A program made the translations under genes and the position numbers. Below are positions 8,525 to 19,984 of a stretch of 29,259 nt of DNA, one piece after another. Every line of letters begins with the position of its first letter. Positions within the stretch are counted from its first letter, which is position 1. This DNA comes from a virus. Under the pieces are notes generated by a model that worked only from the letters and a program-made list of their open reading frames with translations, was not told the DNA's origin and ran no database searches. The stretch spans positions 1-29,259 of the IMG/VR virus record IMGVR_UViG_3300044625_001350. The stretch is one strand, 5' to 3'.

Positions 8525-10198
8525 ATGAGCAAGAAAAGGGGCCAACAAAAAGCGGTTAAAGCTCAAGGCAAGGTTGCAGCGGCAACAACAACCAGCCAAG
8601 CCAGCAACGTTTTTGGCGCTTATCACGGCGCTGATCCGGCCGACTATGGCATTATCAACAACATCGGTAATTCTGCCAGGTTTGCAGCCTGGAACCCAGG
8701 CCAGGCTGACGCTGACAGCGACACAATTCCAGGACTTGATGAGTTGCGTGGACTGTGCCGCGATGCAGAGCGCAATCAACCAATTGCCACTGGGGCGGTT
8801 GAAAATTTAGTAACTTACACAATTGGCACGGGGTTAACGCTTCAGAGTGCCATTAATGCAGAATATTTAGGGTTAAGCGACAAAGAAGCCCGTGCGTACC
8901 AGTCAGAGTTTGAGCTTTACTTTAATACTTGGGCCAGCTCTAAGTTTGCAGATTATTCCAATAAACAGAATTTTTACGATATTCAAGACTTAACAGAGCG
9001 TGCTGAGTTGGTTTCGGGCGATGCTTTTGTAGCGCTTGTTCAGCCAAAACGAGTGCCCACAGGATGGCCTTATCGCATTGCACTGCAGGTAATTGAAGCC
9101 GACAGAGTATGCAATGAAAACAGAGTAGCAGACACAAATGAATGCACGCAAGGAATTGAAAAAAAAGACGACGTTCCAGTAGCTGCTTGGATTGCCAATT
9201 GCCATCCACGCCGAACGCTGACTTACAAGCCTGGTGGCATTAAGTGGAGCAGGGTTGAGTTCTTCACTCCTGCGACTGGACGCCACAATTTATTGCACTT
9301 ATGGCGCATGAAGCGGCCACAGCAAACCCGTGGCATTCCCTGGCTAGCCCCAGTACTCGGCAAGCTAAAACAGGCCGATCGCTACAGCAATGCAGAGCTA
9401 GACGCTGCGGTAAACGCGGCAATCAATACCATTTTTATGACTATGGATCATGAATCTTTTACTGATTTGCTAGATCAAGACTCCAAAGAGAAGTACATTC
9501 AAAAGGCTTTAGGGTTTGATCGAGTTCTAGAGTCCGCAACGGGAAAGGTCGTAAACCTATTTCCCGGTGAAACAATTGAGACCCCCGCCCCAGGCCGGCC
9601 TAATCCGTCATTCACACAATTCTTTGATGCCGTAACAGGCGAAGTGGCCGTGGGGTTGAACCTGCCCAGGGAAGTGGTCATGAAAGTTTTCAAGGCCAGC
9701 TACTCGGCATCGCGGGCGGCCCTGATGGATGCCTGGAAAACCTATCAAGTGCGGCGGTTCAGGAAAGCATTTAACTTTTGTCAACCGATCTACGAAGAGA
9801 TCCTGGCCGATGCCGTGGCGCTGGGCCGGTTCAACCTGCCGGGCTTCCTGACCGATCCGATTGCCCGTGCTGCGTGGTGTGGTTCTAAGTGGTCTGGCGA
9901 CGGCATGATGGCCCTTGACCCGCTCAAGGAAGCAAGCGCAGCAGCTAAGCGAATTGAGACAGGTATCACAACACTGCCAGCCGAGACCATTGCCTATGAC
10001 GGCGGAGACTGGGAGGCTAATCACAAGGTTTCCGCGAAAGTCCAAGCCGAACGACTGAAGGATGGCCTAGTGGCCCCGCTGGTGGCTTCAAAGGCAAACG
10101 GCGAGCTGCCCATGGACCCCGACTATTCTGAAGATCTCGAAGACCTCAAAGACGATGATGATGACGATAATGATGAGTCAACCGAGGACCGACAATGA
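8525..10198 (+). CDS. Portal protein (lambda gpB family)
   Basis: A 557-aa portal subunit that forms the dodecameric ring through which DNA enters and leaves the head. Features: a basic Ala/Gln-rich N-terminus, GAVENLVTYTIGTGLTLQ, DIQDLTERAELVSGDAF, QVIEADRV, HLWRMKRPQQTRGIPWLAPV (typical of lambda-family portals), LNLPREVVMKVFKASYSASRAAL, and a C-terminal segment SGDGMMALDPLKEASAAAKR that is nearly diagnostic for this family. It ends in a strongly acidic tail (DLKDDDDDDNDESTEDRQ). Its TGA overlaps the ATG of the protease gene (ATGA). The stretch 8790-9560 is AT-richer than its flanks. Confidence 0.93.
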   Translation: MSKKRGQQKAVKAQGKVAAATTTSQASNVFGAYHGADPADYGIINNIGNSARFAAWNPGQADADSDTIPGLDELRGLCRDAERNQPIATGAVENLVTYTIGTGLTLQSAINAEYLGLSDKEARAYQSEFELYFNTWASSKFADYSNKQNFYDIQDLTERAELVSGDAFVALVQPKRVPTGWPYRIALQVIEADRVCNENRVADTNECTQGIEKKDDVPVAAWIANCHPRRTLTYKPGGIKWSRVEFFTPATGRHNLLHLWRMKRPQQTRGIPWLAPVLGKLKQADRYSNAELDAAVNAAINTIFMTMDHESFTDLLDQDSKEKYIQKALGFDRVLESATGKVVNLFPGETIETPAPGRPNPSFTQFFDAVTGEVAVGLNLPREVVMKVFKASYSASRAALMDAWKTYQVRRFRKAFNFCQPIYEEILADAVALGRFNLPGFLTDPIARAAWCGSKWSGDGMMALDPLKEASAAAKRIETGITTLPAETIAYDGGDWEANHKVSAKVQAERLKDGLVAPLVASKANGELPMDPDYSEDLEDLKDDDDDDNDESTEDRQ

Positions 10199-11589
10199 GC
10201 ATTCTTGACCTGCTGGGCCGGCCCTGGGCAATAGAGCCCGATCGGCTAATCCAGCTGCACGAAATCTACGCGGCGCGGTTGCGCGGAGAGCAAGACCTAG
10301 AGGCTGTGGAAGCCGCCATGGGCCGCCAGTTACAGAAGCCGCCCCAAGGCTACGAAGTGCTTCCTGGTGGCGTCGCGGTGATCCCGCTGATGGGCGTGAT
10401 GGCTCCGCGGATGAACATGCTCACGGCTGTATCGGGGGGTGCCAGCGCAGAGCTGCTGGTGCGTGATTTGAAGGCGGCAAAGGCTGACCCAGCCGTCCGA
10501 GCGGTTCTAGTGCGGGTGGACTCTCCCGGCGGGGCAGTTGCTGGAACACAATCAGCAGCAGCTGCTCTGCTGGCGTTGCGCGGTGTCAAGCCCACGGCAA
10601 CCCTGGCCGAAGGCACCATGGCCAGCGCCGCTGTCTGGTTTGGTTCTGCCGCCGATCGCACATACCTCTCCTCTGGTGTTGACGTGGCCGGATCGGTTGG
10701 TGTGGTCGGGACCCATGTGGACACTTCGCAGCAGCAAAAGGCGGCCGGCGTGGTGCGAACCGAGATCGTTGCTGGCAGCTACAAGCGAATTGCCAGCGAA
10801 AATGGCCCATTGACCGAGCCAGGGCGCGAATACATGCAAAGCCAAGTTGATTATTTCTACAGCCTTTTTGTCCAGGATCTGGCGATGCACAAGGGGCTAA
10901 GCACCGAACAGGTTTTGGAGCAAATGGCAGATGGCCGTATCTTCATTGGCCAGCAAGCAGTAGATGTGGGACTGGTAGACGGGATTGCTAGTATGGATGC
11001 AGTTGTTGCCGAGCTAATTGCTCGGGCTGACTCGGCTACCGGGTCGCTCCCCATCCTGTCCCAAGCACCCAAAATGTCTGAACAGATCACTCCCACAACT
11101 GCCGCAGAGCTGGCCACGGCATTCCCTGCCGCTGCTGCTGCTCTCAAGACCGAGGCTATTGCCGAGGGTTATTCGGCGGGCCACGCCGCTGGCCATTCTG
11201 AAGGCTTGATTGATGGTGCCGCTGCCGAATGCGCCCGAATCCAGGCCGTACGGGCGCAATCGCTCTCCGGTCATGAAGCTTTGATTGAGCAACTGGCCAA
11301 CGATGGCCGCACCACTGGACCTGAAGCCGCTATGGCCGTCAACGCTGCCGAGCGTCAGCGACAAGCCACGGTCGGCAGTTCCCGGCTTGCAGGCGTGCAA
11401 CCGGCGATCCCGCAGGCGGGGGCCCCCGAGGGCTCAGAATCCGAGACCATCAAAGCCGTCGAGCCTGACCCCGTGGCGGTCGGGAGGCTAGCTCAGGAGC
11501 TGATTGCTGACGCGACTGCGCAGGGCCGCAAGCTTGAACCCATGGCGGCCTTCTTGAAGGCACGCGAATCCCTGAAAACCCCTAACTGA
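10195..11589 (+). CDS. S49/SppA-type head maturation protease with C-terminal scaffold
   Basis: A 464-aa lambda gpC-like protein. The protease half shows VDSPGG (109-113) forming the oxyanion region, TMASAA with catalytic Ser144, and AGSYK with catalytic Lys197, the Ser-Lys dyad of SppA peptidases, followed by DGRIFIGQQAVDVGLVDGI. The C-terminal part (from ~294) is Ala/Glu-rich and helical, ending at LKARESLKTPN, and is the likely internal scaffold. An in-frame ATG at 11074 (MSEQITPTTAAEL) could start a separate scaffold like lambda Nu3. The enzyme would process portal and scaffold inside the prohead. It overlaps the portal stop by 4 nt and precedes the decoration protein gene. Confidence 0.9.
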   Translation: MSILDLLGRPWAIEPDRLIQLHEIYAARLRGEQDLEAVEAAMGRQLQKPPQGYEVLPGGVAVIPLMGVMAPRMNMLTAVSGGASAELLVRDLKAAKADPAVRAVLVRVDSPGGAVAGTQSAAAALLALRGVKPTATLAEGTMASAAVWFGSAADRTYLSSGVDVAGSVGVVGTHVDTSQQQKAAGVVRTEIVAGSYKRIASENGPLTEPGREYMQSQVDYFYSLFVQDLAMHKGLSTEQVLEQMADGRIFIGQQAVDVGLVDGIASMDAVVAELIARADSATGSLPILSQAPKMSEQITPTTAAELATAFPAAAAALKTEAIAEGYSAGHAAGHSEGLIDGAAAECARIQAVRAQSLSGHEALIEQLANDGRTTGPEAAMAVNAAERQRQATVGSSRLAGVQPAIPQAGAPEGSESETIKAVEPDPVAVGRLAQELIADATAQGRKLEPMAAFLKARESLKTPN

Positions 11590-12029: not shown

Positions 12030-13004
12030 ATGTCTAACATGAATTTTCCTTTTGTAGTATCTCCTTACTACACTGGAATTACTCTCAGTGTTCCACCTGG
12101 CAAGATGATTGCCGACCTTGTGCTCCCTCGCGTTCCTGTTGGGGGTCGCGAGTTTAAGTATCAAGTCATCAACAGCAGTGATTTTTACATTCTCCCCGAC
12201 ACTCGGGTTGGGCGTAAAGGTATCCCTAACCAGGTCGAATTCGGCGCAACCGAAGAAGGGTCTTTCGTGTTTGACGATGGGCTCCTGGATCTTGTGCCTC
12301 AAGCTGACATTGATGCTGCAAACTCCAATATGCACAAGTGGGACCCGGTTGCCCAGGCCACTATTAACACTACTCGACTTTTAGATAAATCACGCGAAAA
12401 GCGTGTCGCTGATTTAGTCTTTAATACCTCTAGCTATACTGCCGCAAATCGCGTAACGTTAAGCGGTAGTGATCAATGGTCCGACGCAACATCGGATCCT
12501 ATTGATGCAATCTTGGCAAAGTTTGACGGCATGTTGATTAGGCCAAATAAGGGCATTTTTGGGCGGCTTGGTTGGAGCAAGTTTAGGCTTCATCCCAAGG
12601 TCACATCTCGTTTAGGTAGCGCTTTGTACGGCAACACTTCGACGACCAACGCTGCCGCTCCCCCCGCCAGTTTGCAGGCTGTTGCAGACCTACTGGAGCT
12701 CGATGAAATCCTTGTTGGCGAGGATTGGGTGAATACTGCCAAGAAGGGTCAAACTCCTGTTATGACTCGCGTATGGGGCAAGCACGCTGCTTTTATTCAC
12801 CAAGAGCCCGTGGTGTCTACCACCGAAGGTATTGCGACCTTTGGCTATACCGCTGAATATGGCAACCGCCGGACCTACACCACCCCAATGGCGCCTGGTA
12901 CCCTGGGCGTTGATGGCGGTCAATCGGTTGTTGTGGGCGAAAGCCTCCGCGAGGTTCTGACCGCTCAAGACTGCGGCTTCCTGTTCTCCAACATTATTGC
13001 CTAA
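12030..13004 (+). CDS. Major capsid protein (lambda gpE-like)
   Basis: A 324-aa shell subunit of the HK97 fold. The N-terminal part contains MIADLVLPRVPVGGREFKYQ; then DTRVGRKGIPNQVEFG and a GLLDLVPQADIDAAN segment occur in the order usual for lambda-type capsid proteins. DKSREKRVADLVFNTSSY, IRPNKGIFGRLGWSKFRLHP and RTYTTPMAPGTLGVDGGQSV follow. No long N-terminal delta domain is present, consistent with scaffold supplied by the C-terminus of the preceding protease. The TAA overlaps the ATG of the next gene by one base. The 5' half is AT-richer than the surrounding late genes. Confidence 0.92.
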   Translation: MSNMNFPFVVSPYYTGITLSVPPGKMIADLVLPRVPVGGREFKYQVINSSDFYILPDTRVGRKGIPNQVEFGATEEGSFVFDDGLLDLVPQADIDAANSNMHKWDPVAQATINTTRLLDKSREKRVADLVFNTSSYTAANRVTLSGSDQWSDATSDPIDAILAKFDGMLIRPNKGIFGRLGWSKFRLHPKVTSRLGSALYGNTSTTNAAAPPASLQAVADLLELDEILVGEDWVNTAKKGQTPVMTRVWGKHAAFIHQEPVVSTTEGIATFGYTAEYGNRRTYTTPMAPGTLGVDGGQSVVVGESLREVLTAQDCGFLFSNIIA

Positions 13005-13578: not shown

Positions 13579-15507
13579 ATGACCCAAACACCGCTACCGC
13601 TCACGATTTCCCAACTGCCAGACCTGGGCAGCGTCCAGGGCAGCGACCGCTTGGTGTTGGACCGCATCGGCGCGGCGGTAACGGCCGGGGCGTTTGTTGT
13701 TGGGCAAGCGTATCAAATTATCAGCGTAGGCAATACCTCTTTCACGGCAATTGGCGCCGAATCAAATACAGTTGGTGCTTATTTTGTAGCCACTGGTGCG
13801 GGCACTGGCACCGGCACGGCGGGGCCGATCAATACCGGGGATGCGCCGCTGTCGTCGGTGGTGGCGTTAGCGGCAGCAGCCGCCCCTGTGCAGTCGGTTG
13901 CGCTGTCGGTTCCTAGTGGTTGGACTACCAGCAGTACCAACACGGGCGGTGGTGTCACCCTCACACTGGCATTGCCGTCAGGATCCAGCCTGCCGAGCAA
14001 CAGCAGCCAGGCCAACTGGGATACGGCCTACTCAATGCGCGGGCAGTGGACCGGCGGGGCCACGGGGCTTAATGCGGCCACTGGGCGCGCAAGTCTGGAG
14101 CTCGGCTCAGCGGCGCTGGCGGCATCGGGAGATTTTGCCACCTCTGCCCAAGGGGCCCTGGCCGCGACAGCGGTGCAGCCTTCAGGGCTGACCTCAGCAT
14201 TGGCCGCCTACCTGACCGCAGCCAACGCAGCCAGCAGCTATCAGCCTCTCTCCGCAAACCTGACGGCTCTGGCGGCAAACAACGCGGCCTACTACCTGGC
14301 CCGAAGCAACCACAGCGGCACACAGCCCCTGAGCACCATCAGCGGCCTGGGGACCGGGATAGCCAACGCCCTAGCGGTGAACGCCGGCGCTGCGGGGGCC
14401 CCCGTGCTGTTCGACGGGGCAGGGGGCACTCCCTCCAGCCTGGGCCTGTTGAACGCCACTGGGCTCCCCCTGGCGACCGGGGTGTCTGGGCTGCTGTCAA
14501 TCGCCCATGGCGGCACGGGAACGGCCACCCCTGGGCTGGTGGCTGGCACACATGTAACCATCACCGGCACCTGGCCCAACCAAACAATCAACGCCACGGG
14601 CGGCGGCGGCGGTGGTGGCCATGGCACCGTCACCAGTGTTGGGCTGAGCCTGCCGGCCCTGTTCAGTGTTACCGGGTCGCCTGTGACCACGTCGGGCACC
14701 CTGACCGCCACGCTGGCGGCCCAGTCTGCAAACCTGGTGTTAGCCGGTCCCGCGACCGGTACAGCAGCAGCCCCAGCGTTTCGGTCCCTGGTGGCTGACG
14801 ACGTTCCGACGATCCCATCAAGCAAGGTTTCGGGGCTCGGCACCCTGGCTACCCAATCGGGCACATTCAGCGGCACCAGTAGCGGCACCAACACAGGAGA
14901 CCAAGACCTATCGGGGCTGGCGGTCAGAGCCAACAACCTGAGCGACCTGGCCAACGCGGCGACGGCGAGGGGCAACCTAGGCGCTGCTGCGTCTGGCGCG
15001 ATTACTGGATCAGGTTTGACCACGGCGACCAACCGCCTTGTTGGCCGCAGCGCAACAGGCACGGGCCCGTTGGAAGAGTTTGCTCCCCTTGGCCTGGCAT
15101 TCTCCGGCGCCAACCTTGCTACGCTGGCGGACATTTACATAGACCTATCGGATGGGTCCACTCCGTTAACACACTCAACAACTGTAGCCAAAAAACTTAC
15201 GCAGTATCTGCGTACTGCAATGGCGCTCACTGATCTGCCAGTGTTTGCCGTTGCGACAGCTCCAACCGGCGCAGCATTGCAATTTGACATTAAGGTCAAT
15301 GGTACGTCAATTTACGCAACCCTGCCAACAATCGCAGCGGGTTCCACTAATTCCACCGCTAGTCCTGGGACATTTGCTTCGGCATTTGTTACCGCAGGCC
15401 AAGTTATAGCGACGGGTTCTGTAATAGCTTATTTTGTTACTCAAGTTGGGTCAACTGTTGCGGGAGCTGGGCTTTTAGTAATTCTGCCAACTAGGAGGGC
15501 AGGATAA
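13579..15507 (+). CDS. Tail fibre protein
   Basis: A 642-aa Gly/Ala/Ser/Thr-rich fibre. Residues ~36-81 form a compact domain with the pattern G-x-x-Y-x-I-x-x-x-G, TSFTAIGA, N-x-VG-x-x-FVATG-x-G-x-GTGTA, which I associate with fibres of cyanophages and other aquatic phages. The shaft contains repeated fibre elements such as SNHSGTQPLSTISGLGTGIA, LLSIAHGGTGTATPG, KVSGLGTLATQSGTFSG, TSSGTNTGDQDLSGL and NLSDLANAATARGNLGAAAS. A distinct ~140-aa C-terminal domain (from DIYIDLSDGSTPLTHS) is probably the receptor-binding head. It adsorbs the phage to the host surface. Its place between head connectors and tail terminator is unusual. Confidence 0.8.
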   Translation: MTQTPLPLTISQLPDLGSVQGSDRLVLDRIGAAVTAGAFVVGQAYQIISVGNTSFTAIGAESNTVGAYFVATGAGTGTGTAGPINTGDAPLSSVVALAAAAAPVQSVALSVPSGWTTSSTNTGGGVTLTLALPSGSSLPSNSSQANWDTAYSMRGQWTGGATGLNAATGRASLELGSAALAASGDFATSAQGALAATAVQPSGLTSALAAYLTAANAASSYQPLSANLTALAANNAAYYLARSNHSGTQPLSTISGLGTGIANALAVNAGAAGAPVLFDGAGGTPSSLGLLNATGLPLATGVSGLLSIAHGGTGTATPGLVAGTHVTITGTWPNQTINATGGGGGGGHGTVTSVGLSLPALFSVTGSPVTTSGTLTATLAAQSANLVLAGPATGTAAAPAFRSLVADDVPTIPSSKVSGLGTLATQSGTFSGTSSGTNTGDQDLSGLAVRANNLSDLANAATARGNLGAAASGAITGSGLTTATNRLVGRSATGTGPLEEFAPLGLAFSGANLATLADIYIDLSDGSTPLTHSTTVAKKLTQYLRTAMALTDLPVFAVATAPTGAALQFDIKVNGTSIYATLPTIAAGSTNSTASPGTFASAFVTAGQVIATGSVIAYFVTQVGSTVAGAGLLVILPTRRAG

Positions 15508-15509
15508 AA

Positions 15510-16379
15510 ATGCAGTATTGGGGCGATTCGTTTACTACCTTTCCACCCCCGGCTGGCCCTGGTGGCGTAGTTGCCACAGGCGGCACCACCCAGGACATAA
15601 ATGTAGGCGGGATAAATTACCGCGTCCATACCGTTAATTCTTCGCAAACAATAAATATAATCAGCGGCGGCACGATTGAATACCTGCTGGTTCCCGCAGG
15701 TGGCGGTGGCAATGGCGGGGACAATTCAGAAGGCGGCGGCGGCGGTGGCGGTGGCGGTAGACCGCTAGAGGGTTCGCTGGCTGTTGCTGCGGGCTTGTAC
15801 CCTGTGACTATCGGCCTCGGCGGGCTAGGGGGAGCTGACCAATCTCGAACCGCTGCACAACGGGCGGGCGGCAATTCATCTGCATTCGGATTAACGGCAA
15901 TCGGCGGTGGCGGCGGCGCCAGGTTCACAGGCACAGCTGCCCCGTTTGTTGGTGGCAGCGGCGGCAACGGCGGTGGCGGGTTCCGGTCTGGTGCCGCTGG
16001 TGGGGCGTCAACCGCAGGGGGATTTTCCGGCGGTGCCGCTGGCGCTACCGCGACAGCGGGCGGAGGTGGCGGCGGCGGCGGCAGCGGAGCCGGGGGCAAT
16101 GGGGTAGCCAGCGGAGTTGGAGGGACTGGCGGCATCGGTTTCGAGTCATCGATCACCGGCACGGCGCAGAGATATTGCGGTGGCGGCGGTGGCGGCAACC
16201 AGACAGGCGCCACCGGGCCTGCCGGCGGCCTTGGCGGCGGCGGCAACGGCGGAGCGCAGAGCGGCGCTGGCCAGGCCGGGGCCGCCAATTCAGGCGGCGG
16301 CGGTGGTGGCGGCGGCCGAGGCGGCGGCGTCGGCGCTGCCGGCGCTGATGGCAGGCTAATTTTTCGCTATCAAATCTGA
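15510..16379 (+). CDS. Glycine-rich phage fibre/adhesin protein
   Basis: A 289-aa protein, mostly glycine in the middle. The N-terminal ~45 residues are ordinary (MQYWGDSFTTFPPPAGPGGV). Then comes the signature of phage glycine-rich domains: IEYLLVPAGGGGNGG, a Gly run, GLYPVTIGLGGLGG, NSSAFGLTAIGGGGG. Long GGNGG/GGGG tracts continue to a short C-terminal strand DGRLIFRYQI. Such domains form polyglycine-helix sandwiches at fibre tips and vary quickly. GGC/GGT triplet repeats in the DNA (e.g. 15734-15763, 16065-16083) offer slippage sites. It follows the fibre gene by 2 nt and is probably its tip or partner. The long Pro-rich reading frame on the other strand is a shadow. Confidence 0.75.
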   Translation: MQYWGDSFTTFPPPAGPGGVVATGGTTQDINVGGINYRVHTVNSSQTINIISGGTIEYLLVPAGGGGNGGDNSEGGGGGGGGGRPLEGSLAVAAGLYPVTIGLGGLGGADQSRTAAQRAGGNSSAFGLTAIGGGGGARFTGTAAPFVGGSGGNGGGGFRSGAAGGASTAGGFSGGAAGATATAGGGGGGGGSGAGGNGVASGVGGTGGIGFESSITGTAQRYCGGGGGGNQTGATGPAGGLGGGGNGGAQSGAGQAGAANSGGGGGGGGRGGGVGAAGADGRLIFRYQI

Positions 16380-16384
16380 ACCCC

Positions 16385-16972
16385 ATGAATTATTTACTTC
16401 TCAACCGCGCCACCAACGTCCTAACTGCATGGCCCCGTGGCGACAGCCAGCCGGTTATTGGACTAGACCGCAATGCCTACCATGTAGTGGAGGCGATTCA
16501 GGAGCCCGAGCCCACTGGGTTCAACCCTGCGACGCACGGCGCGCAACCACTGGCGCCAGTGGTCAGCATCACAGATGTTGATGCCGATGTGAACGGCACC
16601 GTGACCTATGGGTGGGAGGTGGTTGAGCTGCCCCCAGGGCCAGAACCTGGGCCAGACTGGCCAGGATTCCGGCAGGCGATTTTGACCGAGAACGGGTACG
16701 TGGCCGCAATGGCAGCAGCCCTGGATTCTGAAAACGATTCCGCACGCCTTGCAGTGACGTTTTCCCATTCTCGGCTGGATCGCTTCCAGGATAGGGGAGA
16801 TTTTGCCGAATATTTACAGGGCTTAGTTCTAATCGTTTCGGTACAGCCCGAGCAAGAGAAAGGGCCTTTAATTCAGGAATTTCTAGATTTGGCCGTGCGG
16901 TGCAATCTACCAACGGCATTTATAACTGCTTTGAATGGGGCTATAATCGCCATGACTCCGCCTCCCGCCTAA
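16385..16972 (+). CDS. Hypothetical protein, possible tail-fibre assembly factor
   Basis: A 195-aa protein. The N-terminal half (MNYLLLNRATNVLTAWPRGD, then TGFNPATHGAQPLAPVVSI and GWEVVELPPGPEPGPDWPG) resembles the small beta domain of fibre-assembly or fibre-cap proteins that follow fibre genes. The C-terminal half is a helical domain (FRQAILTENGYVAAMAAALD, then LDRFQDRGDFAEYLQGLVLI). No signal peptide or membrane helix is seen. It sits 5 nt after the Gly-rich fibre gene, fitting a chaperone for that fibre. The family call is tentative. Confidence 0.45.
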   Translation: MNYLLLNRATNVLTAWPRGDSQPVIGLDRNAYHVVEAIQEPEPTGFNPATHGAQPLAPVVSITDVDADVNGTVTYGWEVVELPPGPEPGPDWPGFRQAILTENGYVAAMAAALDSENDSARLAVTFSHSRLDRFQDRGDFAEYLQGLVLIVSVQPEQEKGPLIQEFLDLAVRCNLPTAFITALNGAIIAMTPPPA

Positions 16973-16974
16973 CC

Positions 16975-17097
16975 ATGGATCTATGGGATGTTGTCGCCAT
17001 GACGGCGCTGCACCTGGTGTTGTTTCTGCCGGCGTGGTGGTTGCTGACTGCGGATCCCGCTATGCGCCGCTGGCTGGTTGAGAGGCTGAAGCCGTGA
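16975..17097 (+). CDS. Small single-helix membrane protein
   Basis: A 40-aa protein (start MDLWDVVAMTALHLVLFLPA, end RRWLVERLKP). Residues ~5-24 form one hydrophobic helix, followed by a positively charged tail, suggesting an inner-membrane miniprotein with the basic end in the cytoplasm. It begins 2 nt after the preceding stop, and its TGA overlaps the GTG of the coiled-coil/membrane protein gene (GTGA). It could be a holin or antiholin component, or a membrane partner of the nearby peroxidase; the sequence does not decide. The frame is open upstream to 16900, but ATG 16975 fits the spacing best. Confidence 0.55.
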   Translation: MDLWDVVAMTALHLVLFLPAWWLLTADPAMRRWLVERLKP

Positions 17098-17582
17098 ACG
17101 ACCAATCAGCAATGCAGCCAGGAGGGCAGAGCGAAGTAGCTGCAGTCCTTGGCATGATGGCAACGGCGTGCAGTCGCTTGGCCAGTGTCGAAGGTAAGTT
17201 GGAGAATGTTCCGTTAATGCAGCGAGATCTTGGGTCTTTAGTAAGGGGGCAAGAGAAAATGGAAACCACTGTCGAAAGAATAGAGCAGGCTCAGCGAGAT
17301 GCACAAACACAATTTGAGAAACAATTTCAATTACAGCAACTTCAGATTCAAGCAACTCAGATAAAGCTAGAAAGTTATGAGGCTACTGCTAAAAAAGTTG
17401 CGGATCTAGAAAAGCTGTATGGCGAATTGGATAAAAAAGTATTCGCTTACGCTTTGCTGGCTGCTGCTGTGGGCGCGGTTGTAAGCACTCTGTTTACCGG
17501 CTTGCCCGCTTGGCTTGAACGCCATCCATTGCAGAAGGCCAGCTTTATGATGTCTTCGGCACTGGTGAGGGGCCCGGGCTAA
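17094..17582 (+). CDS. Coiled-coil membrane protein, XhlA/holin-like topology
   Basis: A 162-aa protein with a GTG start coupled to the previous gene. Residues ~25-115 are a long charged coiled-coil helix (SLVRGQEKMETTVERIEQAQ, FEKQFQLQQLQIQATQIKLE, VADLEKLYGELDKKV). A transmembrane segment follows at ~117-137 (FAYALLAAAVGAVVSTLFTG), then a short tail. The order coiled coil then C-terminal membrane anchor is that of XhlA-type phage membrane proteins, which work with holins. Its TAA shares one base with the ATG of the cyclooxygenase-like gene, so the two are translationally coupled. No endolysin is adjacent, so a lysis role is only a possibility. Confidence 0.6.
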   Translation: MNDQSAMQPGGQSEVAAVLGMMATACSRLASVEGKLENVPLMQRDLGSLVRGQEKMETTVERIEQAQRDAQTQFEKQFQLQQLQIQATQIKLESYEATAKKVADLEKLYGELDKKVFAYALLAAAVGAVVSTLFTGLPAWLERHPLQKASFMMSSALVRGPG

Positions 17583-19270
17583 TGCTCCTGCCAGCCCTGA
17601 TGCGGTCCCGATTGTTGCGAAGGGTCCTTGTGTGGGCATCATCAATCCCCTGGCTCGGAAAACATGTAAACCGACTTCTCACCAATCTGATCGCTAACTC
17701 CACCACGCCTCGGCCCAGACCATTCAGCCTGTGGTCTCCTGTGGCAGTTGCAACAGGTGGCCCCAGTGGTCCGATTTCCGATTACACATCCTGGCCTGCC
17801 CTGACGGATCGTCAGTTTTCTGCGCGTCATTTGCCTCCTGCCAGTAAAAGCAACATTGCGGCGCTCCCTGATGATGCCCCAAGCGGGCAAGGTGGTTGGG
17901 GCCCGGTTACATCCCTGTTCGCCAGGGGCGAGGTGATGCAGGCGGATCGATCATCTGTTCTGTTCATGTTTTTTGCGCAATGGTTTACCGACAGTGTGCT
18001 CCGCACCGACCCTGACGACCGACGCAAGAACACCTCCAACCATGATGTTGATCTCTGCCAGATATATGGGCTGTATGAGCACCAAGCCCGGTGTCTACGG
18101 AGTCACTCTGGAGGACGCTTAAGCTCTCAGATCATTAATGGGGAGGAATATCCTGATTATCTAGGCGAGCGAAACGAGGCAGGCGAATGGCAGGTAAAGG
18201 CTAAATATAGCTGTTTGGATTCTGAAGGGCGGGTGATCCCCTCACAGGGGCTTTACCCCCATGGCAATACCGAATGGGTAAAGGCAGCCCTAGACAAGAG
18301 TTTCCCCCCTGGCACGCTGACGCCAGAGCAGCGTGATGCAAGGCTTGACAGGCTCTATGCAACCGGACTGGAGAGGGGCAATTCATCGGTAGGGTATGTG
18401 GCCCTGAGCACCATTTTCTTGCGGGAGCACAACCGCATTTGCCAGGAGCTAAGCAGCATTCCAGGGCTTGACTGGAAGGACGATGACGAACGCCTGTTTC
18501 AAACAGCGCGAATGATAAATACCTGCTTACTGCTAAAGCTAACTATTGAAGACTACATCAATCATATAGCCGGAGATTCATTATTTCGGTTTGATCCCAG
18601 CTTTGCAGAAAGTCAGCCCTGGTATCGCGCCAACTGGATGGCCCTCGAATTTAACCTGCTCTATCGCTGGCATGGCCTTGTTCCAGATCATTTGATTGTA
18701 AATAATGCAATCGTAAAACATTCATTTTATCGCTGGAACAATGAACTGCTGGAGGCGCAAGGCTTGGCTAGCATTATCGGCAACGCCTCAGCCCAGGTCG
18801 CTGGACGTATCAGCCTAGGGAACAACCCTGATTTCCTAATGGGAGCAGAATCTCAGACAATTAAGATGGGTAGAGACTTTAGGCTACAGGGCTACAATAA
18901 ATACCGCCAAAACTTTGGCCTTGCCAAGCTACGGGACTTTACAGAGCTTACCAAGGATAACGGCTTACGTCAAAAACTGGAAACCCTCTACGGAGATATT
19001 GACAGGCTAGAGCTAGTGGTGGGCCTGTTTGCCGAAGATCCCCAGCCTGGCGCTTTGTTCGGATCGTTAATGCTGATCATGGTGGCCCATGACGCCTTCA
19101 CGCAGATTTATACCAATCCGCTGCTTTCAAAAGCTATCTATACAGCCGAAACCCTTACCGCCTATGGGCTAGAGCTAATCGACACAACATCAAGCATTGC
19201 CGGCCTAGTGCGCCGCAACGTGCCTGGGGGATTATCGCAGAAGGTTGCGCTATCATTTCCCCATCATTAG
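17582..19270 (+). CDS. Cyclooxygenase-like haem peroxidase (animal haem peroxidase superfamily)
   Basis: A 562-aa protein whose whole catalytic domain follows vertebrate prostaglandin H synthase. Matches include SWPALTDRQFSARHLPP, LFMFFAQWFTDSVLRTD, NTSNHDVDLCQIYG, FLREHNRICQEL, ERLFQTARMINT, IEDYINHIAG, ALEFNLLYRWHGLVPDH, QVAGRISLGNNP, YGDIDRLELVVGLF and GALFGSLMLIM. By this alignment Tyr361 is the cyclooxygenase Tyr385, His364 the proximal haem His388, Gln133 the distal Gln203, and Ser537/538 lies near Ser530; the distal His207 position is Asp137. The N-terminal ~40 residues are amphipathic and basic (RSRLLRRVLVWASSIPWLGK), like the membrane-binding helices; there is no EGF domain or signal peptide. 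Family members oxygenate fatty acids with a haem tyrosyl radical. The start shares one base with the upstream stop, inside a phage operon. Confidence 0.93.
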   Translation: MLLPALMRSRLLRRVLVWASSIPWLGKHVNRLLTNLIANSTTPRPRPFSLWSPVAVATGGPSGPISDYTSWPALTDRQFSARHLPPASKSNIAALPDDAPSGQGGWGPVTSLFARGEVMQADRSSVLFMFFAQWFTDSVLRTDPDDRRKNTSNHDVDLCQIYGLYEHQARCLRSHSGGRLSSQIINGEEYPDYLGERNEAGEWQVKAKYSCLDSEGRVIPSQGLYPHGNTEWVKAALDKSFPPGTLTPEQRDARLDRLYATGLERGNSSVGYVALSTIFLREHNRICQELSSIPGLDWKDDDERLFQTARMINTCLLLKLTIEDYINHIAGDSLFRFDPSFAESQPWYRANWMALEFNLLYRWHGLVPDHLIVNNAIVKHSFYRWNNELLEAQGLASIIGNASAQVAGRISLGNNPDFLMGAESQTIKMGRDFRLQGYNKYRQNFGLAKLRDFTELTKDNGLRQKLETLYGDIDRLELVVGLFAEDPQPGALFGSLMLIMVAHDAFTQIYTNPLLSKAIYTAETLTAYGLELIDTTSSIAGLVRRNVPGGLSQKVALSFPHH

Positions 19271-19283
19271 CGAGGGGGAGAGG

Positions 19284-19508
19284 ATGAACTGGTTTACCGC
19301 CCTGCTGATTGTCGGCTACATCGGGGTCTGTGAGGCCAGGGTGCCGAGCCCATTCCAGGCCTGCGAGAGCCGCTGGAACTGGGCCCTAGGCGTGCTGGTG
19401 CCGAGCCCTATCCAGGGGGCCATCCCTGCGGTGAGCAACCTGCTGCGCGGCCGGCGGCGACATGACGCCCATGCCGAGCCCCAACAGGACCGCACTCCCA
19501 ACCCATGA
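19284..19508 (+). CDS. Small membrane protein of unknown function
   Basis: A 74-aa protein (start MNWFTALLIVGYIGVCEARV). A strong GGGGGAGAGG ribosome-binding stretch precedes ATG 19284, which is therefore preferred over the in-frame ATG at 19245 inside the peroxidase gene. Residues 3-17 form a hydrophobic helix or signal-like segment; a second weaker hydrophobic stretch (WNWALGVLVPSPIQGAIPAV) and a basic, polar tail follow. The motif VPSP-(F/I)-Q occurs twice. It overlaps the tail-terminator ATG by 4 nt. It may be a membrane partner of the peroxidase, a lysis component, or a small tail-region protein; none can be chosen from sequence. Confidence 0.5.
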   Translation: MNWFTALLIVGYIGVCEARVPSPFQACESRWNWALGVLVPSPIQGAIPAVSNLLRGRRRHDAHAEPQQDRTPNP

Positions 19509-19984
19509 CCCTCCCCATCGACGCGCAAATCATGGATGCCCTGGCCGATCTGCTGCAGGGCGCAGCGGCCACCGAGGACCGGAGCGATATTGCTGGGGTC
19601 GGGCTGTTGATGCTTGACCCCAGCCGCGTGGCGACTGAAGGCGATGGCGTGGTGGTTCGATTGGAGCAGGGCGACCCAGGCGAGGGCATGGCCAGGGACC
19701 AGATCGCTGACACCTGCCGGGTGCAAACAACGCTGCCGATCATGGTCACGATCTACATGCCCAGGAAACCAGGCGATCCGCCCAACTGGCGTTTACTGGG
19801 CCCGTTCTACGCCGAGGTGCATCGCCGGATCATGGCCACCCCTCGCACGCTGGGGGGGCTGTGCCAGGGCATCCAGTCAAGCGGCCGGCAGTTTCCGGAG
19901 CCTGACTCACAAGCGTGTTGGCTGAGGTTGCTTTATGCTGTCACTTACAAGACTGCAGAGTCTGATGTGACTTTGATCAGATGA
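19505..19984 (+). CDS. Tail terminator/minor tail protein U-like (putative)
   Basis: A 159-aa protein (start MTLPIDAQIMDALADLLQGA). An N-terminal helix is followed by a beta segment (VATEGDGVVVRLEQGD), then TTLPIMVTIYMPRKPGDPPN, AEVHRRIMATPRTLGG and a C-terminal strand SQACWLRLLYAVTYKTAESD. This helix-strand-strand-helix-strand plan and the place directly before the tail-tube gene fit tail terminators such as lambda gpU, which cap the tube and join it to the head. ATGA overlaps occur at both ends. The assignment is by order and overall pattern. Confidence 0.65.
   Translation: MTLPIDAQIMDALADLLQGAAATEDRSDIAGVGLLMLDPSRVATEGDGVVVRLEQGDPGEGMARDQIADTCRVQTTLPIMVTIYMPRKPGDPPNWRLLGPFYAEVHRRIMATPRTLGGLCQGIQSSGRQFPEPDSQACWLRLLYAVTYKTAESDVTLIR

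Follow-up and report, generated by a model that had tools for sequence, protein, structure and literature searches.

A mobile gene for a probable haem fatty-acid dioxygenase in the late operon of Synechococcus siphophages

The stretch of DNA analysed here (the window) is the entire 29,259-base IMG/VR virus record IMGVR_UViG_3300044625_001350. Its upstream part encodes, in order, a helicase, RusA, a neck protein, TerS, TerL, a head-tail adaptor, portal, protease, scaffold and MCP; after MCP come fibre-type genes, a 162-aa ORF, the haem dioxygenase gene that is the subject of this report, a small ORF, and then the tail terminator, tube and tape measure genes (Table 1). By Pfam, by PHROG and by comparison with related phages, the siphophage late operon is intact around the dioxygenase gene. 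The original prediction described this gene as a 562-aa reading frame whose start shares a base with the preceding stop, and it is present in that form, the A of its ATG overlapping the upstream TAA (TAATG). It was also placed between phage fibre/membrane genes and the tail terminator; its neighbours are indeed phage structural genes, but the small ORF intervenes before the terminator.

Table 1. Features of the dioxygenase locus, in window coordinates
Feature	Position	Strand	Evidence
Upstream fibre-type genes (642-aa, Gly-rich and 195-aa ORFs)	13579..16972	+	second ORF: Gly_rich_2 and phrog_2295; position as S-CBS3/S-LBS1 fibre genes
162-aa protein, probable coiled coil with C-terminal transmembrane helix, translationally coupled	17094..17582	+	no Pfam family
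Mobile cassette: block of DNA similarity to L002 in this region	17535..19277	+	blastn against occupied and empty sites; aligned junctions
Haem dioxygenase gene (562 aa, PF03098, 10S-DOX-like)	17582..19270	+	ORF listing; Pfam; PDB sequence match; AlphaFold model and COX-2 alignment
Residues 1-38: three predicted N-terminal helices where COX has membrane-binding helices	17582..17695	+	model; COX-2 alignment from chain residue 84; hydrophobic moment up to 0.54
QWFTD, residues 133-137: distal haem helix, Asp137 at the place of COX His207	17978..17992	+	COX-2 alignment; all relatives scored; Nostoc 10S-DOX FTDSF (PMC13049297)
YRWH, residues 361-364: catalytic Tyr and proximal haem His	18662..18673	+	aligned with COX-2 YHWH (Tyr385-His388); conserved in relatives
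VAHDAFTQ, residues 501-508: terminal substrate motif, Ala505 at the place of Ser530	19082..19105	+	COX-2 alignment; 10S-DOX GxDAFxQ; relatives
Small ORF, 74 aa from ATG, directly 3' of the dioxygenase gene	19284..19508	+	
Tail terminator	19505..19984	+	phrog_4204, E 6.6e-7

The window TerL is 60% identical to that of S-CBS3, and a 767-aa tail protein has matches only in S-LBS1, S-CBS1 and S-CBS3; judged by sequence, the window phage is a Synechococcus siphovirus, and the phages carrying the dioxygenase gene are viruses of freshwater-type Synechococcus. The MCP (12030-13004) is closest to B3-like Pseudomonas phages, at 43%, and TerL and the tail proteins are closest to Synechococcus phages; the head module can be read as a mosaic.

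A homologue of the 162-aa protein precedes the dioxygenase in every carrier. Proteins of this type (17094-17582 in the window; 6289-6783 in L105, 6451-6759 in L107, 691-999 in L109 and 9284-9778 in L008) are probable coiled coils with one C-terminal transmembrane helix, in which the transmembrane segments are interchangeable and the tail is shared, and the family spans several cyanosiphophage lineages, both carriers of the dioxygenase and non-carriers. It is possibly a family of lysis proteins; a comparison with known lysis families gave no Pfam match above cut-off for the 162-aa ORF or its homologues. On one carrier contig, G004, the next gene on the same strand is a C39-type peptidase.

Eight further IMG/VR contigs carry the dioxygenase gene at 84-96% protein identity, making nine in total; a family-signature scan of 2.9 million IMG/VR contigs returned no carriers beyond these, and 50,697 named phage records, cultured phages included, held no match to the gene. 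Two carriers, L002 and L003, share 95% identity in the dioxygenase, with 24% in MCP and 29% in the upstream ORF, and DNA similarity between the window and L002 in this region is limited to the gene and a few tens of bases. In G005, where the contig end truncates the gene, the copy matches that of the window at 96% identity; of the other window proteins, this contig has a detectable counterpart of the upstream ORF alone, at 40%. G004 is a sister of G005, about 79% identical to it across much of the backbone DNA, and the dioxygenase genes of the two are only 80% identical (DNA). These comparisons show transfer between lineages. Because two backbones with hardly any other detectable protein in common share the gene, in one case at 96% identity, it is a single-gene cassette that moves. 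Relatives with an empty site run directly from the upstream 162-aa-type ORF into the small gene that follows, their match to the window stopping at 17573 (L121, L122) or 17570 (L123) and restarting at 19271 (L105) to 19284 (L123). S-LBS1 (L101) has an integrase (10085-10939) in the fibre-terminator interval where the window has the dioxygenase, which marks this interval as a variable cargo site. A shared GAGGGG-type junction was considered as a recombination signal and rejected: the longer motif GAGGGGNARGG does not occur exactly in the window, and with one mismatch allowed it occurs about as often as chance predicts, so the sequence at both junctions is only ribosome-site-like. Separately, the 53-kb viral contig IMGVR_UViG_3300044613_003466 (L110, L115) has two tail-terminator relatives near its ends and may be joined or composite.

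The position of the gene between fibre-type genes and the tail terminator, adjoining a transmembrane protein and in an interval with variable cargo such as the S-LBS1 integrase, would suit a protein of the virion or membrane, one that is packaged with the tail or close to it or that bars superinfection by altering the host envelope, in place of a metabolic enzyme. We consider this unlikely: in close relatives that lack the gene the flanking tail genes are intact, which makes it dispensable for tail assembly, and G004 and G005 have it on other tail modules.

The protein itself matches Pfam An_peroxidase (PF03098, E = 2.6e-40) and has neither a PHROG nor an NCBIfam family; its best PDB match by sequence is human COX-2 (E = 5e-59). 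An AlphaFold model built from a 54-sequence alignment (pLDDT 91.4, pTM 0.92) aligns over residues 1-560 with COX-2 chain residues 84-583 (Z 41.5, rmsd 1.9 A over 484 residues), so that the predicted COX fold spans the whole chain; elsewhere the model scores Z 27-28 against plant alpha-dioxygenase and about 25-30 against peroxidases. This fold match, together with the nine carrier contigs, agrees with the original claim that a genuine phage encodes a haem oxygenase with the complete COX fold. A structure model lacking the haem and fatty-acid channels had been named as a refuting outcome; at the level of the overall fold, which is that of COX in full, this did not occur. The amphipathic N-terminus noted at the place of the membrane-binding domain also appears in the model, as three predicted helices (residues 2-8, 10-20 and 23-38) with an amphipathic stretch near residues 10-36.

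Active-site residues were located through the COX-2 alignment, in which COX Tyr385, Trp387, His388 and Tyr348 correspond to Y361, W363, H364 and Y325 of the phage protein, Y325 being the central Tyr that also belongs to the 10S-DOX-like enzymes. Prostaglandin-synthase motifs had been read throughout the catalytic domain; the YRWH segment stands, but His207 is Asp137 and Ser530 is Ala505. The distal helix accordingly carries FTD(S/G) in place of FTH (FTDS, residues 135-138), the terminal motif is DAFxQ with Ala for Ser530 (DAFTQ, residues 504-508), and Gly526 of the COX oxygenase channel is Val501. Conservation was scored by aligning 83 relatives to the window protein: every row has the distal Asp, and the terminal motif DA(F/L/I)x(Q/H) is found in all rows that extend to that position. 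One bacterial relative (L040, 5941-7503) has YRWS for YRWH and thus no proximal haem His; it may, on this reading of its sequence, be inactive or differently liganded.

Both replacements are features of the linoleate 10S-dioxygenase (10S-DOX) of Nostoc punctiforme (B2J5P4; Brash et al. 2014, via PMC13049297), for which we took residues from the 2026 review PMC13049297: its distal helix reads F143-t-d-s-F and its terminal motif GxDA487FxQ490. That enzyme converts oleate and linoleate to 10S-hydroperoxides, and a catalase-related lyase encoded by a separate gene consumes the product; across the superfamily, a haem-generated Tyr radical strips a hydrogen from the fatty acid, whereupon O2 adds (PMC13049297). 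Two cyanobacterial 542-aa proteins (L160, L163) have the length and numbering of 10S-DOX (F143, Y305, Y342, A487), and each adjoins a catalase-related gene; the phage protein matches them at 35-36% identity along about 545 aa, and its identity to other cyanobacterial members reaches 39%. A catalase-related hydroperoxide lyase adjoins the dioxygenase at 18 of 30 cyanobacterial loci. Some cyanobacterial relatives (L098, L099, L166) lie inside ORFs of more than 900 aa that are probably fusions, with a catalase-related stretch after the dioxygenase match in L098 and L099.

From these sequence comparisons we assign the phage protein to the bacterial 10S-DOX-like branch of the peroxidase-cyclooxygenase superfamily. 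The tree places the phage subclade outside the cyanobacterial clade containing the 10S-DOX type, and for this reason we do not claim 10S specificity; the regiochemistry may differ, with V501 for Ile483, A330 for Thr310 and a separate subclade. A fatty-acid dioxygenase best accounts for the intact Tyr361 and His364, the COX-type N-terminal helices and the 10S-DOX signature. We think it probable that the gene specifies a membrane-associated, late-expressed haem fatty-acid dioxygenase from a Synechococcus-like source, and that this enzyme is catalytically active in making fatty-acid hydroperoxides.

Peroxides arise in infected photosynthetic cells, and a member of the PF03098 superfamily might instead act as a haem peroxidase against the oxidative stress of infection, with no physiological oxygenation of fatty acids. 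Such a role seems improbable, however, given that the distal His of peroxidases is Asp in every relative scored, that the fold match to COX is far better (Z 41 versus 25-30 for peroxidases) and that the predicted N-terminal helices are of the COX membrane-binding type. Still less credible is a true cyclooxygenase, meaning a prostaglandin-type bis-oxygenase with peroxidase activity: COX-2 is the best PDB match by sequence and by fold, and the catalytic Tyr and proximal His are present, but the exchanges of His207 for Asp and Ser530 for Ala are both 10S-DOX features, and the nearest sequences are bacterial, where arachidonate is unusual. We rejected it on the replacement of the distal His and Ser530, and the original description of the protein as a cyclooxygenase therefore fails in the catalytic sense. 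Because the phage protein has the 10S-dioxygenase residues where COX has its distal His and aspirin Ser, the expected product would be a fatty-acid hydroperoxide and not a prostaglandin endoperoxide; arachidonate is unlikely to be the natural substrate.

The nearest cellular genes, annotated as 'peroxidase family', are found in Synechococcus CS-1325, J7-Johnson and Tobar12-5m-g (65-73% identity), and among 300 sampled genomes of the Synechococcus family only these three have the gene. All viral copies form one clade (SH-aLRT 99) within a clade (100) that includes these three Synechococcus genes. A prophage location for the three was considered and rejected, as their flanks match no window gene besides the dioxygenase. 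The J7-Johnson homologue (L021, 130-2747) has one in-frame TGA, and the gene that comes after it belongs to the fatty-acid hydroxylase family (PF04116), which hints at a lipid context. Purifying selection acts on the protein, given a dN/dS of 0.10-0.24 among viral copies, where dS reaches 1.0; values computed with L021 are void, since its TGA puts the aligned codons out of register. One might suspect a misassembly, or a piece of host DNA that entered the phage contig recently and has no function, where carriers number only 9 of 2.9 million contigs and host homologues are rare, but we reject it as barely conceivable given nine contigs from different metagenome records with open reading frames on at least two unrelated backbones, this range of dN/dS, and clean empty sites resolved to the base; the misassembly that had been named as a refuting outcome for the original prediction did not materialise.

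The gene thus lies inside a genuine phage genome (the late operon) and is structurally dispensable (the empty sites); it derives from a cellular gene (the tree) and is retained by selection. An auxiliary metabolic gene acting on fatty acids, as first proposed, is plausible on this phage context, dispensability, cellular origin and selection. We infer catalysis, substrate, timing and benefit as follows. A Synechococcus siphophage would have acquired the gene from a Synechococcus-like source, after which it would have spread among unrelated cyanosiphophages as a single-gene cassette. Translation would be late and coupled to that of the upstream membrane protein. Peroxide would prime the ferric haem, which would oxidise Tyr361 to a radical; this radical would abstract an allylic or bis-allylic hydrogen from an unsaturated host fatty acid (oleate or linoleate type), O2 would add, and the fatty-acid hydroperoxide would be released. 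With Asp for the distal His, the COX-type peroxidase step (hydroperoxide reduction) is expected to be weak. Unlike many of its bacterial relatives, the phage gene has no hydroperoxide-lyase or P450 partner on the phage, and no catalase-related lyase was found in the window, G004 or G005; a scan of viral contigs with a cyanobacterial catalase-related protein, which reaches close relatives only, gave no relative. A weak peroxidase step and no lyase found on the phage would together mean that hydroperoxides accumulate or pass to host enzymes. The benefit most likely falls in late infection, through destabilisation of the host membrane that aids lysis or through disposal of free fatty acids from degrading membranes, which would fit the position of the gene.

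These observations suggest that oxidised fatty acids are produced by the virus as its host dies. More tentatively, and at somewhat less than even odds in our estimation, tailed phages of picocyanobacteria may be active makers of oxylipins, a mobile late haem dioxygenase converting fatty acids of the host membrane to hydroperoxides, which would promote lysis or serve as a chemical signal to neighbouring cells or grazers. The presence of a mobile, conserved copy in at least two cyanosiphophage lineages suggests that oxidation of host fatty acids benefits the phage, and offers a testable connection between infection by phages and cyanobacterial oxylipin chemistry; if the proposal is true, phage oxylipin production would be a class of auxiliary metabolism so far undescribed. 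Fatty-acid dioxygenases with the COX fold have been described in animals, plants, fungi, algae and bacteria. The open-licence literature searched contained no relevant report of a phage or viral cyclooxygenase, oxylipin dioxygenase or haem-peroxidase auxiliary gene. In BFVD, divergent superfamily members are present in giant viruses (A0A5K0U9G0 and A0A2I2L5A1, a Yasminevirus alpha-dioxygenase and an Orpheovirus haem peroxidase), and we accordingly restrict the claim of novelty to tailed phages; a third viral match there, A0A7T7DFZ6, is unnamed and 308 aa long. The enzyme family is known, whereas a mobile version kept by selection in tailed phages seems not to have been described previously.

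Compared with known systems, the window phage has related TerL and tail proteins and a gene order in common with S-CBS1, S-CBS3 and S-LBS1, but these named phages, among the 50,697 records, lack the dioxygenase. The three Synechococcus genes, which fall in the same clade as the phage copies at the identities given above, differ in being located on cellular contigs, where no further window gene lies near them. Plant alpha-dioxygenase has the superfamily and fold in common with the phage protein (Z 27-28) and is farther from it than COX is, by fold and by sequence. COX-1 and COX-2 (PGHS) share with it the overall fold and the equivalents of Tyr385, Trp387, His388 and Tyr348, but have a distal His207, Ser530 and an EGF-like domain that the phage protein lacks (the alignment starts at COX residue 84). 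The phage protein is unlike Nostoc 10S-DOX in its subclade, in Val501 for Ile483 and Ala330 for Thr310, in the spacing from distal helix to central Tyr (190 residues versus 162), in being phage-borne, and in having no adjoining catalase-related lyase gene; in common with that enzyme it has the COX fold, the catalytic Tyr and proximal His, the distal FTD, Ala for Ser530, DAFxQ, and N-terminal helices of the COX membrane-binding type with no EGF-like domain.
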